From Byssothecium circinans (lineage: Eukaryota; Ascomycota; Dothideomycetes; Pleosporales; Massarinaceae), in NCBI GenBank assembly GCA_010015675.1, contig ML977032.1, positions 217,582 through 257,479 of the forward strand: a stretch of 39,898 nucleotides of DNA, in the 5' to 3' direction. Every line of letters begins with the position of its first letter. Within the stretch, counting starts at the first letter, position 1. A model generated the notes under the pieces. It saw only the letters and a program-made list of their open reading frames with translations. It had not been told where the DNA came from and did no database searches. Position numbers and translations under genes: made by a program. This document shows positions 15,578 to 39,568 of the stretch, piece after piece.

Positions 15578-17175
15578 CTACAACATCGCCTTCGGCATCC
15601 TCTTCATCGCCTGCCTCACCCCCAAATCCGCAAGAATCTCCTCCGTGCCCCCCAAAATCGCATCAAACTTATACGTCCTATGAAACATCTCCACGACCCT
15701 CCCCATACCCCCCTGCGTAATCCCCCTTCCCCCAAATATATTCACCGCCTCGTCTGCAATCTCGTGCGCGCAGCGCGTGGCATACGATTTGAGCAGCCCG
15801 ATAGGACCCCCGAGGTGCGTGTTCTGCTGCGCGTACGACATGGATGACATTTGGAAGGCGATGGATTCGAGCCAGGCCTGGTTGGCTTCGACGAGGGCGA
15901 TCATTTTGGCGAGTTTTTGGCGGATGGCGGGTTGGGAGATGAGGGGGGCGGAGAAGACGATGCGTTGGTGGGTCCATTTTAGGGTTTCTTCGACGATGGT
16001 GCGCGACATGCGAATTACTGCCGCGGACATTCCGAAGCGCTCGTGGTTGAAGTTGGACACTGTTTCGATATTTTAGCAACTATGATATTCCCACCTATTA
16101 ACATTGCGTAGTCAGACTTACTGATGACAGTAAACCCCTTATGCTCCTCCCCAAGCAGATTCTCAACCGGCACCTTCACATCATTGAACTCAATAAACGC
16201 CGTCCCCGCCGTAGTACTATAACTCGTCTTAATCAGACTCGTCTCAACACCCTCCTGCCTCTCTACAAGCACCACACTAAACCCCTTGTCCGTCCGACAC
16301 CCCACGACAAAGTAATCGCACCACATCCCATTCGTAATCCACTTCTTGGTCCCCCTAACCACATAAAATTTCCCATCCTCCGTCTTCGTCGCCGTAGTCC
16401 TCAACCCCGCCACATCCGACCCAGCAAAAGCCTCCGTAATAGCCAAACACATCTTCTTCCTCCCCGCCAACACCTCCTCGACGACCTTCCTCTTTTGCTC
16501 CGACTCAGGCATCCACTGCAGCACCGCCGTCAAGCTAATCATCATCCCCGCCATATTCCCGTCCTGGAAGCCCCTCGCATTGCTCCGCACGAATTCCTGC
16601 ACCTGCACCATATCGTGCAGATAATCAAACTCCTCGCCCTTCACCACGCCGAAGAGATTCTTCCCGTGCAGATGCTTCCCCGGTCCCAACCGCATGGCGA
16701 GTATATCCCTCGAAGCCATGAGGTCAATCAGCTCCTGGGAGATATACGTGCCATCTTTCTCCTTGGCCTGCGCCTCCGGCGTGACGAACTCGTCGACAAA
16801 CTCCCTGACCTTGCGCTGCAGCGCGCGATGGCTGGCTTTGAAATACGGGCTCTTGCCCTCGGGACGCAGCCACAGCGGTTCCGCGTACGGCACTGTGCTG
16901 AGTTCGCCGATGCCGCGGACGATCACCTCCGGCGTCTCGTTTTCGAGCACGCCGACGCATAGCGAGGTGTACTTTTCCAGCACTTCTTGTCGGTGCAGGT
17001 TGTAGAAGGCGGTTGTCGCGTCGGTGCCGGCGATTTGCTCGAGCACGACTGTGCCGCCTGGGTGCGCGTCGAGGAAGTCGCTGAGGTCGTAGACTTTGTG
17101 GTCGATTATGCACCAGAGGTCCGAGGGGGTGTTGTGGGTTGCTACGGCTTCACGGGTGAGGGCTTGGGGGGGCAT
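15578..17175 (-). CDS. Cytochrome b5-acyl-CoA dehydrogenase fusion protein
   Basis: Two exons, 17175-16122 and 16059-15578, give 511 aa. The 62-bp intron (GTAAGT...ACAG) splits the Met codon of GFTVI-MSNFN. The ATG at 17175 (MPPQALTREAV) was chosen because the frame is open further upstream but has no earlier ATG. Residues 4 to about 80 form a cytochrome b5-type heme domain with the axial-ligand motif HPGG (38-41) and a second candidate ligand, H61. The rest is a full acyl-CoA dehydrogenase: N-terminal helical domain, the FAD-contacting block ITEAFAGSDVAGLRTTA, KKWITNG, and a C-terminal four-helix domain with IFGGRGIT. The usual MCAD-type glutamate position (YEGT) reads LGGT. A glutamate does occur at E358 (NHERF), where isovaleryl- and long-chain enzymes carry their base. 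The b5 domain could pass electrons within the same chain. The substrate is unknown. Confidence 0.9.
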
Positions 17176-17806
17176 TGTGGGCAGGAGGGGATTGTGTTGT
17201 GTTGTGGTGGATTGGTTGTGGATGGGACGATGCTTTAGCTGTGAGGCGCAGAAGTAGGTGTATGTGAAAGGTGGGGGTAGTGAGACAGGAACCTTCAAGC
17301 TACATTATTTCGAAAAGAGGAAATAAAGGTCTCGGCCGGCCCCAGAGCTAGAGCGGCTTCTCCGCAAGCTTTTCTCCGCAGATTCAGCGCAAATAATGAG
17401 TCGTGATGTTGGTGGTGGTGGGCATTCCTGCCTGGGGCCGAGGTTCGAAGCTCTGCATCAGCGGGATTCTATAGCCTCCTATTGGTCAGTACTCCGTGAT
17501 TACTACCCGCACATGGAGATACGCGATAGGATGTTTGGTTGAGGATGATGATTTCGATCTCAAATATTTTGGGATATAGAAAGCATGGCTGACAAGAATA
17601 TGTACAAGACTGGCAAAGCTGCTAAATCACAATGATGCTCCACGCTGAACGCTCCACAAATATATCTATCAACTCAGTACAGTCATAGATGCCCCAAGGT
17701 TGGACACGGTTTCACGGTTGACTGTCGAAAGTGTACCCACACTTCTGCTGCTGGTACTGTACACCCTGCTCACTCCTCATACAAATACAGATGCTGTTAA
17801 CGGCTC
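17176..17806. other. Intergenic region between OTU1 and b5-ACAD
   Basis: Both flanking genes are on the minus strand, so this stretch holds the OTU1 3' UTR and the b5-ACAD promoter. No gene is seen. There is a GC-rich palindrome GGCCGGCC near 17333-17340 and a GGTGGTGGTGGG run near 17411. Confidence 0.45.
17438..17443. promoter_or_regulatory. Possible fatty-acid response element (CCGAGG/CCTCGG)
   Basis: A CCGAGG hexamer lies about 265 bp upstream of the b5-ACAD start. Its reverse complement, CCTCGG, is the core reported for the fungal fatty-acid regulators FarA and FarB. Only one copy is present, and the same hexamer occurs elsewhere in this window (for example near 5650), so chance is a fair explanation. 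Confidence 0.2.
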
Positions 17807-18796
17807 TCAGCTTGCCTCCCCAAAATCGCCATGTCCCGTTTCTTGCGCATGCTGTACCGCAGCCTGTTCACCAGCACCCTTCCACCCGCACTGGTTGCAC
17901 TTGATAGTAAACTTCTGAGTATCCGTAAAATAGTGCTTCTTCTTTAGTTCCCCACACAATTGCCTCGCCGCCTCCAGTATCACATCGTCCCTCGCATCGA
18001 AGAGCTTCACATCATTCGCCGTATCATATGTCGCGCATCCCTGCGGCACGAATGCTATCGTATCGTAGTGAATCCCCGAGTACACGAGTATACACCGCTT
18101 TGGCCGACCCTCATTGAAGCGGTCTACCCGCAAATCTTGCACATTGATGCTGCAGATCTCGATATCGAACTCTTGCGACAGGATGCTGAGCTCGATGCCG
18201 CCGCCCCACGAATCAGAGTATGATATCCACCGGCAGTACTCGTCTGGCTTGCGCTGGAGAATGGCTTCGTTGTACATGTCAGGGTCTGCCTGGATAGCTT
18301 GCGCGACGAGGGAGCGGAGCTCTGTCATAGAGTCCAGGGAATCAGAAAGAACGGCACTGCCCAGGGCGCGGAACATGCATGAATTGTCGTCAGGCATGAC
18401 CCGTAGAACCATAGTGCCTGCCCGCGCCGGCACTGTTATCTCCGGCGTCTCCTTGAGCGCATCGTTTTGTTTCCGTTGTAATGATAGTGGTGCGGATTTT
18501 GACCGTTCGGAGGAGGGGGCTGGCTCGGCTTGTGCTGTTTCGCTCGGGTCTCCGGTTGCCTGAGCTATGACGATGAGAGTGGAGCCATTTAGCTTGAGGT
18601 CAGTATCGGCGAGGCGGGTTGAGAGCCCGTAGAGGGAGGGATCGAGAGGCTGTGGAGGGAAGCCCCATTTTAGTTCGAAGAGCGGAAGGTTCGTGGTGTT
18701 GGTGATGGAGGAGAGGAGGTCTGAGACTGCGGCGTCATCGTCGAGGGAGATGGTGGGCATGCCCGATGGCGTGCGGAGTTTGATGCGGATCGGCAT
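17807..18796 (-). CDS. OTU1: Ubiquitin thioesterase OTU1 (YOD1-type deubiquitinase)
   Basis: A single exon with an ATG at 18796 gives 329 aa, close to the family length. Residues 1-80 form a UBX-like domain (MPIRIKLRTPSG start) that in yeast Otu1 and human YOD1 binds Cdc48/p97. An acidic/Ser-rich linker follows (81-120). The OTU cysteine-protease domain carries PDDNSCMF, with catalytic C140 next to D137, and YSGIHYD with catalytic H243. The C-terminus is a C2H2 zinc finger with C300, C303, H316 and H322. In known family members the enzyme trims ubiquitin chains (preferring K48/K11-type linkages) on Cdc48 clients in ER-associated degradation. All key residues are present, so it should be active. 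A ubiquitin-like/AN1 gene lies two genes away on the same strand. Confidence 0.96.
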   Translation of the reverse strand: MPIRIKLRTPSGMPTISLDDDAAVSDLLSSITNTTNLPLFELKWGFPPQPLDPSLYGLSTRLADTDLKLNGSTLIVIAQATGDPSETAQAEPAPSSERSKSAPLSLQRKQNDALKETPEITVPARAGTMVLRVMPDDNSCMFRALGSAVLSDSLDSMTELRSLVAQAIQADPDMYNEAILQRKPDEYCRWISYSDSWGGGIELSILSQEFDIEICSINVQDLRVDRFNEGRPKRCILVYSGIHYDTIAFVPQGCATYDTANDVKLFDARDDVILEAARQLCGELKKKHYFTDTQKFTIKCNQCGWKGAGEQAAVQHAQETGHGDFGEAS

Positions 18797-20272
18797 ATTG
18801 TCTCTCGTGTGATCACAACTCTGGAAGAGGTTTGTAAAGAATGTTTTGGCTGCTTTTACAGTAGACTCGATAGTGTTGTGTGCGGTGTACAGGCAGGTAG
18901 CCGGTGTCGTTTGGTAAAAAAAAGTTGGGGAAGGCGAACAGGACCCCGCGGCAAGTGCTTCGGAACGGAGGCAGGAGCGTTTGTCACCTTATGCGTGGCT
19001 AGAATTGTTTTGTAAGCGAGAACTGCGCGGTGAAAAGGTGAGGAAAGGCAACAATAGTGACATAAGCGCGTGTGAACATACGATGCTTGCGGTGAGGCGT
19101 GGTACTGAGTTGGCATGCCAATGAATGTTCCGAACCAAGCCGAAACCAGATCGTCGGTGCACGGACCAGTGACCTTGAGTTTCCTCTTCCCCGGTTGAAC
19201 TCCGCAACACCTCCAAGTCTTCAAATCTCCATTGAAGAAAGGTTCACTACCAGCTAACAAAACTTTCGGCGCCGGCCTCTGCATCTAATGATACACTTGG
19301 TTCCCACACGTAGCACACTTATCTGGCACAGGGCACACAAGTCACCAACATCGAGTCCCCCTTCCGGCCCTTCAACAGGATTCTGATTGGGAGACAGTCG
19401 GTCAGTTATTGAACCAAGGATTACCTTCATGAGAAGGATGGCCGTCGATGAGAAACGGACATAGAAGCTGTGCTCACCTGGATTCTAATTCATCCGCTTT
19501 CTCAATTCCCCTTGACTAAAAGTCTGTTATCTCCTTGACCCTGCACTATCGTCATATCCAGCGCTACATATACATGTTTTCACTCAGATCCCCTAGACAT
19601 AAAGTACAGCGCGGTCGGGGAATCATGCGGCCCAAATCCCCCCCGGTTTCTCCAGCTCTCTCTGCCTTGGGTTTGAAAACGCATGGAATAGCGCATGCCA
19701 GACTCCTCTCCTCTTCATTGTACCGAATTATCACCCAAATCCATCAGCAATGGGGATCCAGACGTCAATATACATATTCCATATCGCGCCCCCATTCATC
19801 TCGTCGTTGTCGCTCGTGTCGATCTCTGTAAGGAAATGTCATCATTCACCCCGCGGAAGGAGCGTGGCCGTGGAGTGAAGAACATGCCGGTTGTCCGTTT
19901 CCGGAAACCCTGCATATAAACCCCCAACATCAAAGAGTGCCCAGCGGACACTGCATCGCAGAAACGTCTAGGCTCTAGCTTGGTCAGTCGCCAGAACTAA
20001 TGTGTACGACATCGCGTAGAATTCAAGCGAGCTGATTTGTGAAGGATGTACTCTTCTAAAGTGTTGATAGGCAGCATCCTGGATATCATAATCGGTGTGC
20101 AGGGAACGTGCTTACACACAGCGCATATACCCAATGGAGGGTAGTCTTTGTGTATATCAAATGTAAGCTTATAAGTAGTAGTGATTGAACTTGCGAGGGT
20201 TCGGGAGTTCGTGTTGCGCAAAACAGGCCTTGTTCAGCTGCTTCCCATCGTATCACCCCACCACAAGGTACA
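18797..20272. other. Intergenic region between divergent OTU1 and P450 genes
   Basis: This 1.5-kb region holds both promoters. A 142-codon minus-strand frame (18856-19284) begins with ATG but shows no domain, so I do not call it. A TATAAA-like sequence (GCATATAAACC) occurs near 19912-19922, about 350 bp before the P450 start. Confidence 0.45.
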
Positions 20273-22004
20273 ATGTCCGTCTCTTTGTACACGTTCTTCT
20301 CTGCCATATTGGTGCTCGCTCTCTACAGGCTTAGCAGAGTCGGGAGACGCTCGCCCGGGTTACCGCCAGGGCCGCCTACCTTACCGATTCTGGGTAATCT
20401 GCACCTGATGCCCAAGGAGAAAGGGCATCTGCAGTTCCAAAAATGGGCGAAAGAGTATGGACCGATATATTCGTTGATACTGGGAACAAAAGTTATGATC
20501 GTTCTGTCGAGTGATCAGACGATAAAGGACTTGCTCGATAAGAGAAGTGGGATTTACTCGTCGCGACCAGATATGTACCTTGGGGGTATAGTGAGCGGCA
20601 ATTTGCGTATGCTTTTAATGGTACTAGTCAGCTCCGCACTTCATAGGGAGAATTGGTGCATGAACAATGGCTGATCAGACGCGCATAGGAGTATGGCGAA
20701 GAATGGCGCATGATTCGGAGGGTTGTGCACAACAACTTGAATATCAAGGCGTCGCGAACGTATCTGCCGTATCAAGACCTTGAGAACAAGGCTATGCTGT
20801 TAGGCTTTCTGGAAACCCCGGACTTGTTTATTGATCACATTCGCCGGTACACGAACTCATTGACAACCCAGATGGTGTTTGGCTTCCGTACGACGAGCAT
20901 TGACGATCCGAAGCTGAAGCAGCTGTTCCATGGCTTTGAGAAATTTTCCCAAGTCACCGGAACGGATACTGCCGCCCTTCTCGACTTGTTTCCGATCCTG
21001 CGCTGGTTGCCCGATGCTGTACTTCCGATGCGTCGGTATGCGAAGGAGCTGCATGTCAAGGAGAAAGAACTGTACGTCGGGCACTGGTTGAATGTCAAGA
21101 AAGCCATCAAGAGTGGCACAGCAAAGGTACGGATATTGTTGGGTACAGATTGTTAACAACTGACGTACACCAGCCGTGCTTTTGTCTCGATCTCGCTCGC
21201 GCACAAGACGAGGAAGGATTTTCCGACGACCTGGCTGGTTATATTTCTGGATCCCTTCTCGAGGCAGGCTCTGACACAACATCCGCCACTCTCATTGGCT
21301 TTGTACAAGCCATGATTCTCTTTCCTGAAGTTGTTAAGATAGCTCAGGCAGAACTCGACCGCGTCTGTGGGGATAGACTCCCGACCATGGACGATGAACC
21401 CGATCTGCCCTACATCCGTGGCTGTGTCAAAGAGAGCTTGCGCTGGATGCCAACTGATATCCTCGGTGTACCGCACGCGGTAATCAAGGACGACGAATAC
21501 ATGGGCTATACGATCCCCAAAGGCTCTGGTGTCATGTGGAACGTTTGGGCTGTTCATATGGATGAGAAGCGGCATCCAGATCCACGGCGTTTCGATCCGG
21601 CTCGCTACAAAGACGACCAGCAGACTGCAGCAGAAGCGGCGAATAACAGAGATGCATCGAAGCGCGACCACTTCGTGTTCGGCGCTGGAAGGCGGTTATG
21701 CCAAGGTATGCATATAGCGGAGAGGTCGATGTTCCTCGCAATATCACGGTTGCTTTGGGCGTACAACTTCGAGAAGGCTGTTGATGAGCAGGGGAATGAG
21801 GTTACGCCTGATGCGGGGAATCTTACCGAGGGCTTTTTGGTCGCGCCCAGGCCGTTTCCAGCGCGTATTGTGCCTAGAGATGGGAAGAAGATTGAGGTTG
21901 TTCGGTCGGAGTGGCGGAAGATGGAGGAGTTGCTTGATGGGTCGGCCCAGTGGAGAGAGCTTCCGGAAGGTCTGATCTGGAAAGAATACAAGGCGGCGGC
22001 ATAA
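20273..22004 (+). CDS. Cytochrome P450 monooxygenase
   Basis: Three exons, 20273-20620, 20689-21126 and 21174-22004, give 538 aa. Introns of 68 and 47 bp are canonical and lie in phase. An N-terminal membrane anchor (about residues 2-20) leads into the proline hinge PGLPPGPPTLPILGNLH, indicating an ER-anchored microsomal enzyme. Signature motifs are all present: the C-helix WRMIRR, the I-helix AGSDTT (293-298), KESLR (ExxR, E349-R352), the PERF-like region FDPARY, and the heme loop FGAGRRLCQG with C438 as heme ligand. The overall style resembles the CYP64/CYP620-type P450s of filamentous fungi that act in secondary metabolism or xenobiotic oxidation. No backbone synthase is nearby and its neighbours are housekeeping genes, so the substrate is unknown. 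It lies 424 bp upstream of the RSC gene on the same strand. Confidence 0.93.
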
Positions 22005-22428: not shown

Positions 22429-25236
22429 ATGGCGACTGTACGCGCTGGTAGCGCCACGCCTGTACCGACCACAGAGAAGGCCGACCCTGGCACCGATGGC
22501 GCGCCTTCCGCAGTCACAGAGGCAGAGTGGACAGCCATGTCAACAGTGTTGGCGAACGTGTATGCGTTCAGGACGGAAGAGTGAGTTTTGTGCATAGGTA
22601 CGCGTTGCAGGTGCTAACAGCGCGCGACAGTGGCTACGATCCAACCAAGTTGTTCCAACGCAAGGTTAACAAGCGAGCGCTGCCCGACTACTACGAGGTC
22701 ATCAAGGAGCCCATGGCCCTGAGCGAGATCAAGCGAAAAGTGGCCTCAAAAGACTATAAGTCGTTTTCCGAATTCGTACGCGATTTCGCCCTCATTCCGC
22801 ACAACGCCCAGGTCTACAACAGGCAAGATTCACAGGCGTACGTAGATGCCCTTGATGTGAAGAAGGCGCTAGAGGCAGAATTGAGGAAGCTGGTGGAAGG
22901 AAACGTCATAACGGAAGAGGTCGCAACGCTACCCTATCTCGGCGAGATTCCTGAGCAGGACCCACTCCTACCCGAGGAAGAAGAGGAAGAGGAGGAGGAT
23001 GACGAGGATGAGGATGCAGAAGAAGAGGTCGAGGACGAAGTGGATGACGACGACGACGACGACGACGATGGCAAGCGTAAGAAGAAGCGCGGAGCTCGTT
23101 CAACTGCCGCGATTGCCAAGCGTGAGGCGCGTAGTAAAGACGATGCCAAAGACGACCCGGAATCAAGGAAGAAGCGAGGACGACCGCCGCGCGTGGATAC
23201 GCCTATGGAAGCTAGGATAAAGGCAATCATGAAAGCGATCAGGAAACCCCGCAACCAGGCCAACAAGCTCATGGTCGGTTCGTTCGAACGAGTACCCGAT
23301 AAAGCAGTCATGCCCGAATACCACGCCGAAATCAAGAACCCCATGGCAATGGATGTGCTAAAGCGGAAGTTGAAACGAAAGAAGTATAACTCGGTTGATC
23401 ACTTTATGGTGGATGTGGAACTCATGTTCGAAAACGCGAAGCAATACAACGAGGAAGACAGCCAAATATACAAGGATGCGGTGCACCTGCAAAAGGAGGC
23501 ACGTAAAACTGCTCAGGCAGAGAAAGACAAGGATGACTCGGAATTCGTCATGGAAGAGGGTCGAATCCCCATGCCAAACGGCATTCTCCACAATGGCGAG
23601 CTCTGGAAAGTGGGCGACTGGGTACATATACAAAACGCCAACGACCTCACCAAACCAATAGTTGCACAAATATATCGAACCTGGCAAGACGCGGAAGGAA
23701 GCAAATGGGTCAATGCCTGCTGGTACTATCGACCAGAACAAACTGTGCATCGATTTGACCGGCATTTTCTCGAAAATGAAGTGGTCAAGACGGGGCAGTA
23801 TCGTGATCACCCCATTGACGAAGTTGTTGACCGCTGTTTTGTTATGTTCATCACACGCTACAACAAAGGCCGCCCAAGGGACTTCCCTCGTGACAAGGAC
23901 ATCTACGTCTGCGAAGCGCGTTACAATGAGGAAAACCACAAGCTGAACAAGATCAAGACATGGGCTAGCTGTTTACCCGATGAAGTTCGCGACAAGGACT
24001 ACGTTATGGATCTTTTCGATGCCCCTCGAAAGCTGAAAAAGATTCCTAGCCCCATCGCTTATCTGCTCAAGGACGAGCAGAAGGAGGATGACGATCTGCC
24101 AAAACCAGAATGGGGGGCTGAGAATGCGCCGCCAAAGATTGGTGCTGTACATCGTCGGCCGCGCGATCCCAAGGTAAGTTGTGATCCATCACTTTTCGCT
24201 CACCTCAAGTTGAGCAAGTCCCTGACAAAATATCTAGGATTCTCCCCCGCCTGAGCCAACACCGTCACCTCCACCGCCTCCCCCTCCAGCACCAATAATG
24301 GCTACCCCGACCCTTCCTACTCCTCAGCCCAACGGCTATAGCAACACCATGCAGAGCAGCTATCCGCTTGCCCAGGCGCCCTCAGCTTCCCCCATGCCGG
24401 CGCCAACACCCCAGTCCCACCATGTGCAGACGGCATACACCCCAACCCATCACTCGCACCAGCAGCAATACCACTCTCACTCACAATCACCCGCCCCCCA
24501 CGTCTCCCATCAGCCCGTTGCCCAAGCGCCAGGCTTCCAGCCGATTACACCCCACCTTCCTTTTGCTACACCGCAACCTCATACTCCAGTAGCGCAGTTC
24601 GCAACCCCACGTATTGCGCCACAGTACCAGCAGCAGCCTCTAGTCCACCAAGCGCCAGTGGGCTATAAAGCTCCGCAACCCGTCGAAGTCTACACATTGG
24701 CCGATCACGCCAACGCGTCCATCCCCGCAGATATCCGCGAGCAATTCCACCGAGACGACCAAGGACGCGTCCTCTTCTTCACCGCGCCACCAATAAACAG
24801 CGAGCGCATCGTCGCCAAACCAGGCCGAGCCCTCGGCCACTCAGCGACCTTCCTTGCCGCCAAACAACGCCGCGAAGCGCTCAAAGCCGCCAAACGCAAA
24901 GCCGACGAGGCCGGCGCCGCCGAACGCGAAGCAGCAGCCAAGAAAGCACGTCTCGAGACTGAACGCAAGCTGCGAAAAGACATCGACGACTTGCGTGTCA
25001 AGGCCATGCACGCTATGGAGGACCAACTCGCTCTTGCCACTAAGAGGGACTTCCAGATGCTGGTCGGTGACGCGGATGGGAAGGAAGGGATTAGCAGGAG
25101 CTTGGAGAAGTTGGGAGAGCTTCAGGAGGAGACGGCGAGGAAGAAGAGAGAGAGGGAGGAGAGGTTGAGGAAGTTTGAGGAGGGGAGGCAGGTTGGTATT
25201 ACGGGGATGACGGTGATGTTGGAGGAGAAGATCTGA
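22429..25236 (+). CDS. RSC1/RSC2-like chromatin-remodelling subunit (two bromodomains, AT-hook, BAH)
   Basis: Three exons, 22429-22580, 22631-24173 and 24238-25236, give 897 aa. The ATG sits in CACCATGG, an excellent context, and joins YAFRTE-DGYDPTKLF across a 50-bp intron. Domain order is: bromodomain 1 (about 50-135, with PDYYEVIKEPM), a long Glu/Asp tract (about 165-200), an AT-hook (RKKRGRPPR, about 231-240), bromodomain 2 (about 243-345, with PEYHAEIKNPM), a BAH domain (about 370-500, with WVNACWYYRPEQT), and a Pro/Gln/His-rich linker. The end is a charged coiled coil. This matches Rsc1/Rsc2/Rsc4-class subunits of the RSC (SWI/SNF-family) nuclear remodeller, which read acetylated histones. 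The coiled coil after the proline-rich linker could bind complex partners. It is convergent with the large SKI3 fragment. Confidence 0.94.
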
Positions 25237-25718: not shown

Positions 25719-28700
25719 TCAAGCACCCTGCACACACCCCACCAACGCCCCCCAACCTACCCTACACCACGGCGCCAGCACAACCCCCCTCTGCACATCC
25801 GCCACACACCCGGTCCCCACCACCGCCCTCGCAAGCCCCACAGCATCCAACGTCCCACTCGGTGGAACACACCTCCCCGCCGTCTCCCTGGCCATCACAC
25901 TCGCAAACCCACCAGCATCCCCACCCGCGGCGTTTGCCAATTCCTCCCACCCAACATTCTTCCACGGCGCGAGCATGACGCTCGTCCTCGCCTCATCCAT
26001 CTCCCTATCCTCTCCCCCGAGCAGAAAACTCATACCATCGAGCACCTTTTCCACGCGTGAGAGTTGCTCGCTTGTGAGATCTTTGCTGGTGCGGAGGAGG
26101 GAGAGATCGGCCTGGATTGCGGACATTGTGTCTTCGTCCTCGTCGATGACTGCCATTGCGCCCAGAGTCGTTACGATGCCGATATGCAACGGATGCGCTT
26201 CCGCGGCGGTGAAAAGTTGCTCTCGGGCGATATCTTTGGCGTTGCCGTCGCCTTTTGCCCAGAGGACTTCCGCGAGGAGGCAGATGATGTCTGGGTTGGA
26301 GTTTGTGGCGCTGAGGGAGCTGCGGAAGTAGGGGATTGCTTTGTCGAGGTCGCCGCAGAAGAAGTGGGCGAGGCCTGCGGTTAGGCGGGCGGAGAGGCGC
26401 GTTTTGGAGAGCGCGGAGGGGGAGAGGATGGACGGGTTTGTCGAGGCGTCGAAGTCGGAGAGGAGGTCTAGTGCTGTTTCGGCTTCTTCGGCGGCGGAGT
26501 CGTGGGTGCTGCTGGCTAGGAGGTTGCGGGCGAGGTCGTTTTTGGCTTGCGCGTAGCGGATGAGGGCGGAGTCGGATTCGGAGTTTTCGTAGTCTTGCTC
26601 CGCGGCTGAGCATATGCCTGTCAAGGCTTGGATTGCTGCGTCATGGTTACCGATTCGTTCGAGGAAGAGGGCTGCTAGGTGTTTGTGAGGGATATCGTAG
26701 GGGGCTTGGAAGCTCAGTTGATGGAGGCCAAAGAGGGGTTGGATGAGGTTTGTGATGTTATTTGATGCGGATGGTGATGTGATGAGGTGGTCGAAAGTTG
26801 AGATTGCGTATTGGCGCTTTGTGAGGAGGGATGAAGAGTCGGAAAGCTCGAAGGCGTGTGTGAAGTGTGAGAGAGCTTCGGTGGTGTCGCCGTAGAGTAG
26901 GGCTATGATGCCTTCACCTACCCATGCTAGTGCGTAATCGGGATCGGTCGACTGGGCGCGGGAGAAGGCTTGATGAGCTAGTTCTTGATCACTCTGTAGA
27001 AGATAGAGCGTCCCAAGGTTCGTCCATGCGCTTACGCTACGCTCATTAAGATGTAAGGAGCGAACGAATGCGTGTTGGGCGACTTTCGGATTCAAAGCTG
27101 TCGTGATGACACCTAATGAATTCCAGAACTCCGAATTACCGGCTTCGAGTTCGATAGCTCGCTTGAAGCACTTCATAGCAGCTCGTAGGAATGTAGTGAG
27201 CTTCGGGTCTTGTGCGTTCTCTTGCTCTAAGCACACATGAGCTCGATACTCTGTCCATCCCAGGTTGTACCAGGCGACCGCTTGAGCATGTATATCGTGT
27301 GCACAACTCGCAATGGCGCGCTTGTGGGCTAGTATTGAGGCGTGTAAGATTCTCGTGAGCAGAGATTGGTCCTCGGAGGCGAGCCTAGACAGCTCACTCT
27401 TGCCAACGCCGTCGATATCATTGTGAGCATCAAAGTCCAACTCAATGTCTGACTTGCTACCGAGAAGATCCACTACGACCTTTGCTGGATACTGACTAAG
27501 TTTCTCTTGGACCCAAGTGAAAATGCTGCATGCGTCCCCGACAGCTTTCCACAGATTGAAAGCATCCGGCTTGTACTCCGTGATGCTGAAAGCGACCTCG
27601 AGAGCTCGATTCGCATTGTCAGCGGATTCACCAAAGAAGCCAGTTTCTACACATCTCCAACTCTTCTCTACGAGAGTCTGCACAAGCGCAATGGAGAGGC
27701 CGAACTCTTTTGGTCTCTCAACTAGAACTTCTTCATATCCTTGGACGGCCTCGTTGAACTCGCTCAGCTCACGGTGAACATTCGCAAGCATGTATTTGGC
27801 GAACCAGCTCTCACTATCCAGTTTCTTCATCGCAATACCGTCGGTGGGGTTCTCGGCATAGTTGAATGCCTTCGCTGCGGAATTGTATCGTCCCGAGTTA
27901 TGGTAGCTCTCGCCGAGGCCAATGTACGAATGGTAATCATTAGGACCGATGCGGAGTGCCGACAAGAACGAAACGATACTCTTTTGATATTCTTGCTTGT
28001 TCATTTGGACGACGCCCAGGGCAGAAAATGGCCAGCTTACGCCCTTCTTCTTTGAACTAGGCATGGTCCGGACTCTGCCCGAATCTACCACTCGCTGCGA
28101 GACCACTTCGACAATATCCCATTCACCTTGGTTGGCAAACAAGCGGGCTAAGCGCTCGGCTGCGACCACCTCGGATGAAGAGAGCTCGAATGCCTTCTGG
28201 AAGCATTGCCTTGCTCGCTTCTTATCTTTGCTGTAGTCTTCGTAGAAGATGCCGAGCTTTGTGTACGGCGGAGCATAGCTAGGGTTCGCTTTGATCGCAG
28301 CAAGAAATCGAGCATATGCACCTTGACGGTCGCGACGGGCAGCTTTCGACGGATTGAGCTCCCACATGCAGACACCAATTCTGTACAGCGTCTGAGCGCG
28401 GAGTTCCCGACCGCGCGTGTTTGAAGCATCCAGTTGAGGGTACTCGAGATACTCTTGCAGCCGTGAAAGGCCAGTCTCGTAGTCGCCACTGAGTGCTTGA
28501 CACCAAGCCGCCTCTGCTCCAATGCGGCCATTAGAGGGATCCTGTTTCAAAGCTTTCTCAAGAAATTCAACGGCATCCCTGTACTCTTCCTCCTCTTCCA
28601 AGATGAGGCCTATACCAATCAACGCTGGTGTGAATTGGGGCTTGTTCTCCAATATGGATTGGAAGATGCCCTTGGCCTCGGGATGATTCCGTGGCGCTTG

Positions 28701-29202
28701 GTAGTAGACTAGAGCGGTAGCGAGTGTACTGCTCAATGCATACCGGGTTCTTTGAAACGTGAAATCGGTCTTTTTGGCCTCGTTCGCTGCAAGCTTTAGG
28801 CCTCTTCTTGTTGTCTCGACAGCGCTCTCGTATTCTTCTAATGAGAGGTAGTAGTCGCCGAGCAAGCAGTGTGCGAGCGGCGAATTCTTCGCTTCCAAGA
28901 TGCCCTCCTATTATCACATTAGCGAAATATCAGAGGCATCGTTTTAATTCTCTTACACTCATCAGCACCAAACAGTCCTCCTGCGAAAGGGGAGCATCTT
29001 GATCCAGAGCTACCCCGCCTTCGCTCAGATCGGGTGCTTCTTCGTTCGATTTCTCTACAAGCGGATACCTGGATACGCCGCTACTCAGGTAGCCCGTCAA
29101 GACTTTCGAAAGACCTTCGCCAGGAAAGAGTTCGACATATTGGCGTAATGTCTGGATATCCAAATCGAGCAGATCGTGGGCGCTGTCTGCCCGTGACGCC
29201 AT
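25719..29202 (-). CDS. SKI3: Superkiller protein 3, C-terminal four-fifths as a separate gene
   Basis: Two exons, 29202-28957 and 28907-25719, give 1,144 aa. The 49-bp intron (GTAAGAG donor, CGCTAATG branch) is in phase zero, joining VLMS to EGILEAKN. The protein is a chain of TPR helices characteristic of Ski3/TTC37: GLSKVLTGYLSS, AHCLLGDYYLSLEEYESAVE, YYQAPRNHPEAKGIF, LIGIGLILEEEEEYRDAVE, and LNPSKAARRDRQGAYARFLA. In other fungi about 280 residues precede this point, but here the protein begins MASRADSAHD directly at the family's DLD(I/V) block. The missing N-terminus is encoded next door on the opposite strand. Ski3 scaffolds the cytoplasmic Ski2-Ski3-Ski8 complex that feeds mRNA to the exosome. 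The frame is intact over its whole length, so it is not a decaying pseudogene. The ATG at 29202 is in a fair context (GCGTCA downstream). Confidence 0.9.
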
Positions 29203-29522
29203 CGTATCGATTCGACTAAACTGAAGCCCACAAGACTAACGCCGAAGGGAAATGCAATACAAACAATCAACAAAGTCGAAGGTGTGTCTTTGTGTCAAAG
29301 CGAGGCTGGCGGGGCAGTGTTGGATGCGTGAGAAGAGTGGTGATGTGATGTTTGTGTTTCTCATAGGGCTGGAATAAGCTTTCGCTAGTGCGGGACGTCA
29401 TTGCCCATACAAACACGATTCGGCTTTTTCTCTCTTTCTACATTCCTCGATGGACTACACATAACACGACGGTGCCTCTCGCGGCACACACTAGTAACAT
29501 TAGTAATTTCTCTATCATCAAC
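29203..29522. promoter_or_regulatory. Shared divergent promoter between the two SKI3 halves
   Basis: Only 320 bp separate the start codons of the two head-to-head genes, so the promoters must overlap or be one bidirectional unit. A pyrimidine-rich run (CTTTTTCTCTCTTTCTAC, about 29424-29441) precedes the + strand start, as is usual at fungal transcription starts. A CRE-like GACGTCAT lies at 29394-29401, near the middle. If the inversion model is right, this is the ancestral SKI3 promoter in reversed orientation relative to the C-terminal half. Confidence 0.6.
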
Positions 29523-30432
29523 ATGTCTACCAAAGCCGCGCTGAAGGCCGCAAAAGCCGCCATCGATTCGAAGAAGTGGGGGGAAGCAATAGAGCACGCC
29601 AATACGGTGCTGGAGAAAGATGGTCAGAATTACTTCGCAAAGCTTTTCCTTGGACGTGCGAATGATGGACTTGGAAAGCTTGACGAAGCAGCGGCAGCTT
29701 ACATTGGCGCGACAAAGATCAAGGCAGAGGATCCTCAAGCATGGCTGGGACTGCGCGGTCTATACGAGAAGCAGGGCCCCGGAAAGGTGGATGAGAATAC
29801 CAAAGTCGGCCTGAAGCTGGCGGAGATATACATGGACCTGTAAGATTGCCCTACAAACTCTGGGGGTCATGGCTAAACGCTGTAGGGACGATGCGCACAA
29901 ATCGCAAACCGCCATCGACAAGCTCGTCAACCACGCCCGCAACCATGGCACGAAGCTCCAATACGTTCGGGCACTTCAAACACAACTACCATCATCTCCT
30001 GTCTACTCGTACCTGGAAGGACGTCTGCAGAACCCCGCCACCACTTACACACGCATAGCCGAGATACATGAGAATGAGGAGGCGCAGACGATCAAGCGCT
30101 TGATTGCTGAGCGCAAGACAAGAATTGGCGCGACATTGGAGGGAACTACACAGTCAGTGAAGAACGAGATATATGGGGTGAGTCCACTGGAAGAAGTATA
30201 CCAGGGCATCATTGACTGGACGAATGATGACGAACAACGGAGAGAGTATGAGGAGAAGCTGCTACAAAGGGCGTATGATACCTTACTTGCGCTTCCGGCG
30301 GGGCAAAAGGCTGAAAAGCGGGACAAGGTTATGAAGCTGGCGCACGATATGGTCATCATCCGCCATACATTCCTACTCGCCTGGCAGATTGAGCTGGAAT
30401 GGAGGTCAGGTCAGGAAGTCGAAGCTTTTTAA
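29523..30432 (+). CDS. SKI3: Superkiller protein 3, N-terminal TPR arm as a separate gene
   Basis: Two exons, 29523-29839 and 29886-30432, give 287 aa. The 46-bp intron has a GTAAGA donor and a GGCTAAAC branch. The start MSTKAALKAAKAAIDSKK is the conserved N-terminus of fungal Ski3. Further family blocks follow in order: YFAKLFLGRANDGLGK, EDPQAWLGLRGLYEKQ, SPVYSYLEGRLQNPA, TYTRIAEIHENEEAQ, IIDWTNDDEQRREYEEKLLQ, AGQKAEKRDKVMKLAHDM, and FLLAWQIELEW. The protein then ends after nine unrelated residues (RSGQEVEAF) with a TAA, exactly where full-length Ski3 continues into the block that begins the neighbouring minus-strand gene. In yeast and human Ski complexes the N-terminal Ski3 arm gates RNA entry to the Ski2 helicase. 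Here that arm would be a separate chain, unless trans-splicing or misassembly intervenes. Confidence 0.9.
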
Positions 30433-33873: not shown

Positions 33874-35819
33874 ATGGGCTTACACACGCATTTCGATCCC
33901 TCTCTCTCAGAGGTTGATGTAATCATCGCAGGAGGTACCCCCCCTACTAAGTTAAAAACAAAGCACACTAACCACTAACCCCACCCCAAGGAGGAACAAC
34001 CGGCAGCATCCTCGCCGCACGCCTCGCCTCGGCGTCCCCAACCCTCCAAATCCTCCTCATAGAACGCGGCCCCAACAACCAAACCCCCACAATCCACCAC
34101 CCAGCCCTCTTCCTCACCCACTTCACCCCAGTCACCAAAACCGTCCACTACAACGTCTCCACGCCCTCCGACGATGTCGGCGGCCGCCAGCTCATCGTCC
34201 CCGCAGGTAGTGTGCTAGGCGGCGGTTCTTCCGTGAACTTTATGATGTATAGTCGCCCGCAGGCGCGCGACTTCGACGCCTGGAACACGCCGGGCTGGAC
34301 GGCGGAAGAGATGCTGCCGTTTATGAAGAGGGCGGAGACGTTTCATGGGGTGGATGAGAAGGGGGTGCATGGGAGGGAGGGGCCGGTGCATGTTTCCCGC
34401 GGGACGTATGAGTCTGGGGGTCTGCAGGAGGATTTTTTGAAGGCGATGGCGAAGAGGGGGTTGAGAGAGGTGAGCGATCTGGCGGATTTGAGGACCGTGG
34501 ATGCTGGGTGGAAGGCACCGCATTTTATTTCACCGGAGGGGAAGAGGCAGGATGTTGCGAGTTGTTATTTGCTTCCGAGGCTTGAGGATGGGAGACATGA
34601 GGGGTTGAATGTGTTGGTTGAGACGCAGGTTGTGAGGGTGTTGTTTGATGGGGAGAAGAGGGCTGTTGGGGTGGAAATTAGGCGGAATCCGCAGTTTGAG
34701 AGTGGGGAGGTGGGTAATGAGTTGCACTGCGTTAAGGCTAGGAAACTTGTTGTTTTATCTTCTGGGGCTTGCGGTACGCCTTCGATTCTGGAAAGATCTG
34801 GTGTGGGTGATGCGGAGGTGCTGAAGCAAGCGGGCGTTCCTCTTGTTGTTGAGCTTCCGGGCGTGGGGAATGGGTATGAAGACCATCACTTGATTCCGTA
34901 TCCGTACCTTAACTCTCTCAAGCCCGAGGAAACGCTCGATGCGCTCCTGTTCGGCGGTCCGGAGAAGATTGAGGAACATATCAAAGCGAAGGCTAAGATC
35001 CTGGGCTGGAATGCGCAAGATGTACAGGTTAAACTACGACCTACGGAAGACGAGATCGATGCCTTGGGTCCTGAGCTTAGGAAGGCGTGGGATAAGGAGT
35101 TTAAGAATGATCCGGAAAAACCTATGGTCGTTTTCGCCTTGATCGCTGGGTAAGTACTCGCCATACACTTCCATCCTCAATGTGATGTTGTGGATTAATA
35201 CTCATTGAAAAACAGCTTCGCAGCCGACCCATCCCTCACAAACGGCGACCCATCGTTCAGCGTAACAGCCTTCACAGTCTACCCCTTCTCCCGCGGCTCC
35301 ATCCACATCACAAGCCCCACCCTCGACACCCCTCCTACCTTCACCACCGGCTTCTTCGCCGGTCCCACCGGCGCCCTCGACGTCAAAAAACACATCTGGT
35401 CCTACAAAAAGCAGCGCGAGATCGTGCGCCGCATGTCCTACTACCGTGGCGAAGATCCAAAATGCCATCCACCCTTCGCCTCCACCTCGGACGCCGTCTG
35501 CGTCGCGCTCACCGAGCCACTTCCCGAGGACGTGAAGGACATCGTATACACAGAAGACGATGACAGGGTGTTGGAGAAATGGATCAGGGGAAATGTGGGG
35601 ACGACGTGGCATTCGCTGGGGACGTGTAAGATGTTGGCGAGGGAGAAGGGGGGTGTTGTTGATGCGGCGTTGGGAGTGCATGGGGTAAAGGGGATGAAGA
35701 TTGCGGATTTGAGCATTGTGCCGGGGAATGTAGCGGCGAATACTAATGCGACGGCTTTGTCGGTCGGGGAGAAAGCTGCTGATATTTTTATTAGGGAGTT
35801 GGGGTTGGTGCCCGTGTGA
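33874..35819 (+). CDS. GMC-family FAD oxidoreductase, alcohol-oxidase-like
   Basis: Three exons, 33874-33934, 33991-35149 and 35216-35819, give 607 aa. Introns are 56 and 66 bp. The ATG at 33874 gives a short lead into the FAD-binding Rossmann fold VDVIIAGGGTTGSILAARLA (about 14-33), whose glycines span the first intron, followed by LLIERG (E45). Other GMC signatures are AGSVLGGGSSVNFMMYSR and SSGACGTPSILERSGVG. The C-terminal block has GTTWHSLGTCKM with the active-site H539, and ADLSIVPGN...NTNATAL with N582 in the second catalytic position. The His/Asn pair and the VHGVKGMKIADLSI style resemble methanol/alcohol oxidases more than glucose oxidase. It is somewhat shorter than AOX (about 660 aa) and ends LVPV, so it has no C-terminal peroxisomal PTS1 tripeptide. 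No signal peptide is seen, suggesting an intracellular enzyme. The substrate is unknown. Confidence 0.92.
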
Positions 35820-35906
35820 TGCGGAGAACGGTATTTGGTATTTCGTTGAAATGTAGTGTTCTAAGGCTATTGAAAATCGACGATCTTCATATGGGTCAAG
35901 GTTTGA

Positions 35907-38707
35907 TTAGTACAGGTTGATCACCTCTTCTCGCGCTTTTTCCATCCACCGATTCTCCCATAAACCCACACCCACATCTACAATCCCTATCCGCCTAAAA
36001 TCCATGCTCTTCTCGGAAATCTTCTCCAGCCGCAAGAGTGTCGTGGGGGTAGAAAATTGCGCCTCTCTAAAAGGAGCCATAAGTTGAGTCGTCGTAACAA
36101 GCATCAACCAAGCGTTCTCAACGAGCGCAGCATCCGCAAAGTCATGCCATATTTCATAATAGTTGCCTTTTGGCAGGTTGCCTAAACCGTCTCCAACGCT
36201 ACGTTTCTCGTAAACCTTCTCGTCTTCGCGAAGTAATTTGCACCGCACTGTGACGTACCCCTCAATGCCATCGAATAACTTGTCATCGATTTCCCAAGCA
36301 ATCGCTTCGACATGGTAATGGTATTGTATGAACCAGCCACCTCGCCATGTCAATGTGTAAGTCACTGGTCCTAACGCAGAGGCCCAGCTCCAGGACGGAC
36401 AAAAAAATGCCTCAATAGCTCTTTCTATATGTTCGTTTGACACCTTCCACAGGAGACCGTGCGCAAAGAAGCGCCTTTTCCAGATACCAGCCGCAGGCGT
36501 ATCTCCCAGCTCTCTCCCAATTGCTTCCTGCACGCTAGCCAAAGCAACTATCTTGTCCCTGTGATCGGAGGTCATTCGCCGCGAATAGTTCATCACTGTA
36601 CGCTGCCACTGGAAGAAAAGATACTCTTGCTTGGATCGAGTCGTTTGCCCAGAACCATTGAGCCCTGCAAGTAGTGTCCTAATGGCATCCGCAGATCGAA
36701 CACTTTTTTGGAGATTGAATTCTGTGGGATCGTACCCGGAGCATTTGGATGTTAGACAGACCCAACCAAGCTCATGCTCGCCGCAGTTCAGCATTCGCCG
36801 CGAAAGGATTTCTTCTTGTAGTGTCCAGCAGCGCGTCTCGAGCATTGGTATTTTATATCTTTGTAGGCTCTTTGCCAATAATCCAGGTTTCCAAAATGCC
36901 ATGACTGGGTTAAGAGGTGACGTACGCATATATGTGGGACGTCTAGAGAGAAGCGAATAATCCGGTATGGTTATGTTCGACAAGCGGAGGTTTAGCGGTA
37001 CAATTGCGCTTTTTGACCAATCCCGTGTTTGGAAACAACCTCCGTTTGCATTTGCTGCATGCTTTGCGGCGATGGTGAACCAGGCGTTGGCGTATATGGA
37101 ACCCATATGTGAAAGTTCGTGCTTCAGATCTTCTGTCGAGTCTTGTAGGATGCAAAGGGCGTCTACCCAGAGGTACTTTACCCCCAGTTTCTGAGTGATG
37201 GTGATGGCATCTGCTATAGTGCGAGGTAAACGTTTTGCAGCAATACCTTCTTGGAATTCGTCCTTGTTCGTGGAAAGGAGAAGGGTATTTCCCTCTTGGC
37301 CCCAACAGTATGACAGCGCGACGTACGGCTCATGCTCCCCTGCCGAGGTGTAGATTTTAGGGAGTATTTTTCCATCACCTACATCAACAACGCGCGTGGG
37401 AAGCCTTCCGAGTTCTTTACGACACGACGGATGTTCGTCTTCGCACCTTTGAAGCCACGCTTTTGCGACTGCAAGGCTTCTCTCTGAGCCACTTCCTTCA
37501 CCGTCAGATGGAGTTGTCTTCAAAATAGCGTTACTGATGTTCCCTGCCTTCATCAGCCGAATGATAAGCATATAAACAGAAAACAAAATGGCCTACTGTT
37601 CACATGTTCCAGGTTCAGATACGCGACTTTATTTCCACATACAATAACCAACCAGTAGCTTGCCTGACGATCGGCCCGATGCGGCTCAACAGTTAGTCGG
37701 ACTTTAGAGCTCAATTCCAATCCCAATACCGGTCTTTCGATTTTGCTGTTGTCCAAGCTGTGTAGTTCCAGCTCGTTGATCAATAACCGGCACAGGCTGC
37801 AACCACTCTCTGCGGACTGCTCTAAGCTAGCATAAGTTTCGGCGTGATAGAAAACGGTAGAGACTTCGCTAGGATCTTGAGCTTCAAAGCGCTTGCATGG
37901 GTCGCATAGTTTTCGATCCCAACTGATTTCGGCACGAGTGTTTGAACGATCTGTAAGGAAGGTATCCATTTCCTTGATCAAAGAAGTGCTCAGCTCTGTC
38001 GTGCTGTTGGTTGTCTGAGCGAGTCTCTCAATAATGCGTGAGAACTGAGTTTGGTAGAATGAGAAATGCCGGTTGTCTGTGCCTTTGACGCCATGTTCGA
38101 CGAGATAAGAAGCTACAGCGAGTTCATCTCCTTCTACCGGTTCGCTGGGTCCCAATGGGAGGTAGTGCGCCACCGTCCGCGAGTCAACTCCATCCAGCAA
38201 GAGCGAGAGGATCTTCCCTTGGTGGTCGAGCACAGCGACGTGTACTGGTGTCCAACCAACATTCGTTTTCGCCAGCGGCTCAGCACCTCCACCCAGCAAG
38301 ATATTGACAATATTCACCTGACCCTCCAATACAGCGATATGAAGAGCCGTACCGCCACACAAAAACTCCGAGACCATTCGAGTATCAGGCTTCGCTTTCC
38401 GATCCAAAAGGAGCTGCACCATATGTACGTTTCGTTTGATAACCGCTTCTTGGAGTGATGTGCGGCCTTCGCCATTGTGTTTCTCGGGTGTCGCACCGTG
38501 GTCGAGCAGTAAAGTGGCGAGTCGTAAGTCGTCTTCCAAAACTGCGCTGAATAATGGTGAAGAGCATCTTAGGCCGTATTTCGGGACAACATCACTGGTC
38601 CACTCTTCGTTTGGGTTGTGGCCATCTTTCAGGTTCTTTTTCCAATCATCGTATAGCGGTAGGGGTTCTTGTGCCTCCAAATAGGATTGTTTCAACCGAT
38701 CGCCCAT
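35907..38707 (-). CDS. Ankyrin-repeat HET-domain protein
   Basis: Two exons, 38707-37597 and 37543-35907, give 915 aa. The 53-bp intron (GTAGGC donor, GGCAG acceptor) joins LEHVN to NISNAIL. Without splicing, the two frames would look like separate genes. The ATG at 38707 (MGDRLKQSY) was preferred because the frame continues upstream without an ATG. Residues about 49-180 hold four ankyrin-like repeats (LLLDHGATPE, LLLDRKAKPD, ALHIAVLEGQVNIVNILLGGG, GWTPVHVAVLDHQGK). A Cys-rich segment follows (LCDPC about 267, GCSLCRLL about 302). The HET domain has YVALSYCWG (444-452), KYLWVDALCILQD (about 493-505) and YANAWFTIAA (521-530), then RCWTLQEEILSRR. HET proteins mediate self/non-self recognition and regulated cell death when incompatible hyphae fuse. 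Ankyrins would serve as the sensing arm. All motifs are intact. It neighbours a hAT element. Confidence 0.92.
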
Positions 38708-39568
38708 TTTTTTGTAAGCCTCCTGTATGAAGGTGGTCACAGTCTATGAGCTGATGTTGGAAACCGATTTGAATGTCATGAGTAGTGGCGGGTGCTTGGT
38801 GTTAAAGGGTAAACGTGGGCGTAAGAGTTTTCGATTCAGTTGCAGCAGAGGCTGCCTTTATATGAAGGAGCTCGTATTTAGGATGGTAAACAACCACCGT
38901 GAGCGATTGTCTTAGCGAGAAAGCCATGCTTTTGCTTGGTGCCATAGTTGCCTACTCGCGGAGGGCAGTGGATACGGGCGAACCAATAAGGCCCTACACC
39001 TCAAATTTAATTAATGGCAAAAAACGTAACTCCAATTCTGCCCGAGCACGTGAGTACGTGACTGGTGTGCGCCATCAAGGATGTAAGCGCTAAGCCATTT
39101 GCGAACCTGAGGGCCTAACGCAAATTCGCACAGCCTTGCATTGGTCAAGCTGAGCATTACGACCCATTAAAACGCATACCGTGCCATACGTGAAGGAATT
39201 GATCTCGAGCGTGACAGAAGGAGAACCGAACAGCGTATGAAATATTAGAAGGGGCCGACATCGTGGATTTGGCTCGATTTCCAATTCGGCTTCATTGATA
39301 ATAACAGCCGGAGTCTTGCATGGGAACACGGTCGTGTCCAACTTGTAAAACTAGCCGAGAAACCTGGGCACGGTAGCGAGCATAGAATATACTGCCTTTG
39401 CAGCCTTCTACTGACTTGCATCCAAGCGATGTATGTCGCCCAATGGATCGAGAGGATGTACGATAGACTTTGCTCTTCTGGCTTCTCAGAGCCCATGAGA
39501 TCGTCGAACATCCCTTTTATCAAACCGAAGATCTCCTAGGTGAAGGCATTGGGTACAGAGTTGGCAAC
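38708..39568. other. Intergenic region between HET gene and hAT element
   Basis: This contains the HET gene promoter. No gene is supported; overlapping frames of 60-92 codons on both strands show no domain. A GCACGTGAGTACGTGAC stretch near 39045-39061 holds two ACGTG cores. Confidence 0.4.

Follow-up and report, generated by a model that had tools for sequence, protein, structure and literature searches.

How can Ski3, the scaffold of a cytoplasmic mRNA-decay complex from yeast to humans, be made from two genes that lie on opposite strands? This question is raised by a stretch of 39,898 nucleotides from the fungus Byssothecium circinans (order Pleosporales), which we call the window. Its + strand carries SKI3-N (29523-30432), whose two exons (29523-29839 and 29886-30432, with a 46-bp GT-AG intron at 29840-29885) encode 287 amino acids. 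The - strand carries SKI3-C (29202-25719), whose exons (29202-28957 and 28907-25719, with a 49-bp GT-AG intron at 28956-28908) encode 1,144 amino acids. The genes stand head to head, and a spacer of 320 bp (29203-29522, assigned to no strand) separates the two ATGs. The original prediction, made from the letters of this DNA alone, had described two intact divergent genes that jointly span one fungal Ski3. That description holds for the gene models re-derived here, in which both reading frames are open and intact, and for their alignment to full-length Ski3.

We propose that one ancient fission, possibly by way of a small inversion, gave rise to a two-chain Ski3 in which the N chain would be docked on the helices at the start of the C chain, and we consider this account likely. 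The sequences support the complementary halves, their presence throughout a clade, a single origin, the failure of searches to find a full-length copy, linkage, and constraint on both halves; docking, a shared promoter and function are the parts of the model that we infer.

Identity of the two proteins and place of the break

Three protein lists underlie the comparisons below: the best 120 of 1,268 matches to the C query (at E <= 1e-10, from a candidate set of limited size), the best 120 of 167 to the N query, and the best 120 of 318 proteins of full-length size, the last obtained with the joined sequence as query and scored on residues 1-287. Statements about listed proteins refer to these.

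The N and C proteins align in order along the full-length Ski3 of Macrophomina and others. Each of the two queries matches all 120 listed full-length proteins, and most of the query is spanned in 119 of them for N and in 118 for C. By sequence and by fold, yeast Ski3 is the best full-span match of both. The N profile covers residues 4-295 of its 1,432 (5mc6_i), and the SKI3-C model begins at yeast residues 293-296 in 4buj_B, 8q9t_E and 5mc6_i, the three chains whose alignment extends to that part. SKI3-C is the rest of the Ski3 solenoid, its yeast equivalent running from about residue 294 onward. SKI3-N holds the Pfam domain TPR_22 (PF18833) at residues 141-228, within the solenoid of tetratricopeptide repeats (TPR). 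N and C jointly show homology to the Ski3/TTC37 family over its whole length and the TPR solenoid fold of yeast Ski3. In other words, the pair resembles the known scaffold of Ski2-Ski3-Ski8 in sequence, in TPR architecture and in its TPR_22 domain, and differs in that Ski3 is one polypeptide in yeast, in human and in the 120 listed full-length fungal homologs, whereas here it is two, from two genes on opposite strands. The SKI3-N/SKI3-C pair is a two-chain variant of Ski3.

The SKI3-N product is identical to a deposited B. circinans protein (P0121), and the SKI3-C product agrees with another (P0001) up to roughly the last 12 residues. At the 3' end of SKI3-C, near 25719, the deposited protein of 1,138 amino acids and the open frame of 1,144 have differing ends.

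The break lies in a loop between two helices within the N-terminal domain, near yeast residue 293. Because it falls inside that domain, the C chain retains a short run of helical sequence, behind which a disordered linker is predicted. At the break stands the last helix of the N chain, FLLAWQIELEW-R (N residues 268-279; 30370-30405, + strand), after which family homology stops, and 8 tail residues lead to the stop codon. The helices that directly follow this one in unsplit Ski3 form what we call the hook of the C chain (C residues 7-42; 29077-29184, - strand). Just behind the hook, in the linker, is the motif PDLSEGG (C residues 57-63; 29014-29034, - strand). The human sequence does not align through the break, so that its position relative to human TPR 8/9 is approximate.

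For these comparisons the N and C fragments were added to a fixed full-length alignment, as automatic MAFFT together with full-length proteins had misplaced TPR fragments. In the fixed alignment 28 of 39 N rows stop at Macrophomina residue 291 and 29 of 39 C rows begin at 278; the remaining rows have mis-set ends, and the unrelated N and C tails share the linker columns.

Distribution of the split

The two halves recur as separate proteins. The listed C homologs measure 975-1,243 amino acids, and none of the 120 contains N homology at E 1e-5; conversely, C homology is absent from all 120 listed N homologs. All of the latter are stand-alone N proteins or pieces, 67 of them exactly 287 amino acids long, and 117 possess the last-helix motif and end 3-15 residues after its W. 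The shorter listed C proteins, in which the first-exon motif is missing, have probably been predicted in truncated form. Because many other genomes hold the same two proteins, chance or assembly error is very unlikely.

The named C homologs belong to what we take to be genera of Pleosporales, apart from Zopfia, which is unplaced within Dothideomycetes according to NCBI. N-only proteins are listed from Pleosporales, from Lophium and Lepidopterella (Mytilinidiales) and from Glonium (Gloniales). The full-length list is headed by Macrophomina (375 bits, 60%), the best unnamed protein reaching 350. Below Macrophomina come Botryosphaeriales, Dothideales, Capnodiales, Aulographales, Venturiales and Trypetheliales and, lower, Eurotiomycetes and lichen fungi, order names that are mostly our own presumed assignments. 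The N proteins of named Pleosporales score 391-631 bits, and those of Lophium, Glonium and Lepidopterella 381, 381 and 372. Given these scores, an unsplit protein from the split orders should stand at the top of the full-length list, and no unsplit Ski3 of Pleosporales, Mytilinidiales or Gloniales is among the best 120 of 318.

The taxonomic scope of the split is thus given by these three orders plus Zopfia; Hysteriales and Jahnulales lie outside what was seen. We considered the split as a mark of the whole subclass Pleosporomycetidae and rejected this, as NCBI also places unsplit Venturiales and Aulographales there, namely Verruconis (Venturiales) and Rhizodiscina and Aulographum (Aulographales). 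Venturia is likewise of Venturiales. Judged from these proteins, the split marks a clade within or across Pleosporomycetidae, not the taxon itself; neither the single origin nor the complementarity of the halves hinges on this label. Viral contigs were searched for fungal DNA with the C gene, and nothing was found.

Copy number and linkage

Searched against its own genome, SKI3-C exon 2 gives one match, and SKI3-N exon 1 gives one at E 2.5e-65 and two weak ones of TPR type (E 0.012 and 0.83). With these two exons as queries, the assembly of 48.4 Mb in 109 contigs showed no second SKI3; no separate search was made with N exon 2 or C exon 1. The genome has a SKI2 gene, on contig C8. The other DSHCT gene, on contig C18, is a putative MTR4.

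The halves remain linked in many genomes. Among the 120 listed N clusters, 48 have a longest contig of precisely the same length as that of some listed C cluster. Names are attached to 40 of these pairs, with agreeing species labels in every case; the remaining 8 are metagenomic, with contigs down to 5,933 bp. This number counts matches and says nothing on how often linkage has been lost. Five species have consecutive locus tags for N and C (J1614_002212/002213, IAQ61_010083/010084, J4E91_001475/001476, ACET3X_001052/001053 and J4E90_000539/000538).

A single and ancient origin

The tree and the rate tests were based on 39 N/C pairs out of 40 named ones, a duplicate label having been removed, and only on full-length proteins of 1,375-1,445 amino acids (110 of the 120 listed). 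For the tree, which was made without a constraint test, 38 full-length proteins were chosen by name and three N-only taxa were added. In the resulting FastTree phylogeny (80 taxa, 1,405 columns) all 42 split tips are monophyletic, with a support of 0.994, and their sister is the unsplit Ski3 of Pseudovirgaria hyperparasitica (Acrospermales), with 0.968. Lophium, Glonium and Lepidopterella are grouped at only 0.565 and branch beside the other split tips. Because Ski3 is unsplit in the other 38 taxa, in yeast and in human, the split is the derived state. With full length ancestral and a split form that is derived once, this is, as far as the tree can tell, a gene fission of single origin.

Here the original prediction is supported in part. 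It had suggested a natural gene fission, which agrees with complementary halves and a single-origin clade, and a mapping of the split on a phylogeny places all 42 split tips in one clade. It had named a second full-length SKI3 as a finding that would refute it, and none appeared with the C exon 2 and N exon 1 queries. The split that it described is real and is not private to this genome, since species of Pleosporales, Mytilinidiales and Gloniales have it in common.

The main radiation of Pleosporales is dated by Ohm et al. to 133-97 million years ago (PMC3516569). Because two further orders share the split, it should precede that radiation, with an age of at least ~100 million years.

Possible origin of the split

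Hypothetically, a single SKI3 broke between two helices of the N-terminal domain in the common ancestor of Pleosporales, Mytilinidiales and Gloniales. A small inversion in place, comprising the promoter and the 5' part, would produce the head-to-head order, with the old promoter now lying between the halves and driving both. Inversion is the simplest account of this order, and it is the least certain step of our proposal. Dothideomycete chromosomes are described as rearranging mainly through inversions (PMC3516569), and Durrens et al. point out that one fission product must acquire a new promoter (PMC2557144). The 320-bp spacer is probably a shared bidirectional promoter, because the 5' regions of both genes start in it. 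A scan of this intergenic region for bacterial-type promoters and terminators gave none and is uninformative for a fungus. We also considered a short duplicated segment at the break and dropped the idea, the early branches carrying short unrelated N tails.

The event resembles the fungal gene fissions of Durrens et al. (2008), in which a composite gene becomes two element genes; as described there, that catalogue covers 12 species (PMC2557144), while in our case a core scaffold gene was split and kept across at least three orders.

The ancestral order of neighbours was compared by the linkage of LDB17 alone. An LDB17-like gene (PF09431) occupies an open reading frame at 2312-3217 on the + strand, about 22 kb from SKI3-C (Pfam was run on 2492-3217). 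A deposited model of Neofusicoccum parvum (P0242) joins LDB17 and SKI3, with LDB17 directly upstream on the same strand. The linkage of LDB17 and SKI3 looks old and supports a common ancestry of the locus.

Constraint around the break

The ratio of N to C identity distances, range-matched, is 1.09 among split and 0.99 among unsplit proteins (half-sample ranges 1.05-1.14 and 0.94-1.02). On this measure the N protein appears slightly loosened, yet not decaying. At the break the gain in conservation over unsplit Ski3 puts six windows of 15 residues at the 66th-92nd percentile. In Macrophomina numbering, which we use for all positions below, most hydrophobic positions of the last N helix and the C hook are kept at or near 100% (274-276, 278, 280, 282, 296, 299, 300, 302, 303, 308, 311, 312, 315 and 316), and one, 273, was gained. 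Surfaces freed by the fission would be expected to drift more widely to polar residues, which is why N is probably still docked on C, and the kept hydrophobic helices are the main sequence evidence for such docking.

The linker behind the hook is also conserved. All 80 listed C proteins of at least 1,120 amino acids have PDLSEGG with V or I as the next residue; the exact PDLSEGGV is found in 79 of these 80 versus none of the 120 listed full-length proteins. The motif is invariant in 45 aligned C proteins and is among the longest invariant runs there. Our linker parser succeeded on 65 of the 80 split and 57 of the 120 listed unsplit proteins. The nearest unsplit relative is Pseudovirgaria by the tree and, by N score among the best 120 of 318, Botryosphaeriales (Macrophomina); their Ski3 differs in being continuous through the break and in that the place of PDLSEGG is taken by a variable, acidic linker. 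That the motif was gained at the fission is an idea weakened by SDEGGAAL at this place in the unsplit sister and by GGVSL in some unsplit relatives.

A two-chain model of the Ski complex

Since the fission, two linked genes, head to head in B. circinans, would have supplied two chains. The solenoid that binds Ski2 and Ski8 is likely part of the C chain, and most of the flexible arm part of the N chain. We hypothesize that the two are held together by helix complementation: the hook (C 7-42) would pack non-covalently on the N helix (269-279), replacing a contact that was formerly covalent, and the linker bearing PDLSEGG would tether the hook to the scaffold. The Ski complex would then consist of four gene products rather than three. 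We consider the functional reading, two chains in one complex, a likely prediction.

The human structures are informative as to what each chain may do. There TPR 1-8 (hSKI3N) are flexible and unmodelled, and TPR 9-40 hold SKI2N and two SKI8 and form with them the gatekeeping module, hSKI3C + hSKI2N + two hSKI8; SKI7 is bound at TPR 29-30 and the head of the 40S subunit at TPR 39-40, and budding yeast does not share the contacts to SKI7 or most of the final superhelical turn (PMC8860381, PMC11540850). Two statements of the original prediction have to be revised in this light. It had put the break at the border of two arms, and the break is actually within the N-terminal domain; and it had spoken of an RNA-gating N-terminal arm, while the human papers, in the parts cited here, give the gatekeeping module to hSKI3C and describe hSKI3N as flexible (PMC8860381).

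The N chain may even be a detachable subunit, free to join and leave, that sits on the C hook, perhaps aided by PDLSEGG, with both chains made from the shared bidirectional promoter; we think this unlikely. If true, the N arm would be separable during Ski-exosome mRNA decay in three or more fungal orders, something that a one-piece Ski3 does not allow.

Weighing the alternatives

Several observations weigh against a single fission whose products stay linked and docked. In Mytilinidiales and Gloniales N proteins alone were seen, and no C. Contig matches are missing for 72 of the 120 listed N clusters, part of which follows from only one contig being shown per cluster, and six species labels occur in both lists on different contigs, although one of these, Alternaria rosae, nonetheless has consecutive N and C tags. 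The head-to-head strand order was read in B. circinans only. The position of LDB17 differs between Neofusicoccum and the window, so more than one rearrangement must have taken place. Measured against C, the N protein of the split clade evolves about 11% faster than its unsplit counterpart. Hydrophobicity has fallen at 295 (0.96 to 0.05), 279 (0.69 to 0.00), 314 (0.40 to 0.05) and 272 (0.96 to 0.79). At 279 the unsplit sister Pseudovirgaria already has E, and its FLLAWQIELEW is identical to that of B. circinans; the changes at 273 and 279 therefore predate the split. The change at 295 is, on the sequences compared, one of the split branch or later.

The same pair of genes could have come from a duplication of SKI3 in inverted, head-to-head orientation, after which the copies lost complementary parts, one keeping the 5' part and the other the 3' part. 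A duplication would also provide the second promoter that a fission needs in the account of Durrens et al. (PMC2557144), and the N tail and the C start both abut the variable linker, with a formal overlap of up to about 14 alignment columns. However, no conserved family residue is covered twice, and neither N exon 1 nor C exon 2 found a remnant of the lost parts, an argument that is weak since remnants could have vanished after more than 100 million years. We regard this route as somewhat unlikely. A separate doubt concerns function, as the C chain might do the work of Ski3 alone while the N chain has become a separate protein with another job outside the Ski complex. The human partner sites (SKI2N, two SKI8, SKI7 and 40S) are in the C-terminal arm and TPR 1-8 are flexible (PMC8860381, PMC11540850), and N now evolves slightly faster than before. 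Set against this, the new end helix of N is hydrophobic and nearly invariant, as is most of the C hook, and the genes are linked in at least 48 contig-matched cases, which makes independent duties rather unlikely. An error of assembly or annotation, the halves really being collinear, would draw on the fact that the strand switch was directly seen in this single assembly. Genomes of many sources and metagenomic contigs nevertheless give the same two proteins with the same ends and starts, the new start (MAS in 72 of the 80 long C proteins) and stop are conserved, and no fused protein of Pleosporales is among the best 120 of 318; we hold such an error to be highly improbable.

Significance and annotation

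TTC37, the human Ski3 homolog, is a disease gene (PMC8860381). A stable two-chain Ski3 would show that the N-terminal domain can do without covalent attachment, and it would be a natural experiment on the role of a flexible and poorly understood N arm. It would also be a clean case of a core gene surviving fission, which is thought hard since one half needs a new promoter (PMC2557144).

In the lists the halves go by 'superkiller protein 3', 'TPR-like' or hypothetical protein, among other names. A full-text search of a limited collection of papers found none that links Ski3 to gene fission, Pleosporales to superkiller or Dothideomycetes to SKI3, which is no proof that the split is unpublished, and none on gene fission with inversion and a bidirectional promoter. 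Papers that mention superkiller and Alternaria concern mycoviruses, and gene fission in connection with Dothideomycetes led to work on a fructose transporter. Some deposited SKI3 models contain foreign domains (P0242 of Neofusicoccum, P0308 of Zasmidium and P0262 of Aulographum; PF09431, PF20684 and PF02330) and probably are mis-joined neighbour genes.

Neighbouring genes in the window

On the + strand at 22452-25236, a frame with two bromodomain stretches and a BAH domain, which we take to be RSC1/2-like, is followed by a second frame, without a Pfam match, that extends to 25236; the two are possibly one gene, convergent with SKI3-C. On the - strand at 35202-38743, a HET-domain frame adjoins an ankyrin-repeat frame, possibly one HET-ankyrin gene or its pieces, with a GMC oxidoreductase frame beside them (33972-35153). 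The window also holds a cytochrome b5/acyl-CoA dehydrogenase frame (16015-17304, - strand), an OTU1-like deubiquitinase frame (17807-18988, - strand) and a cytochrome P450 frame (20940-22004, + strand).

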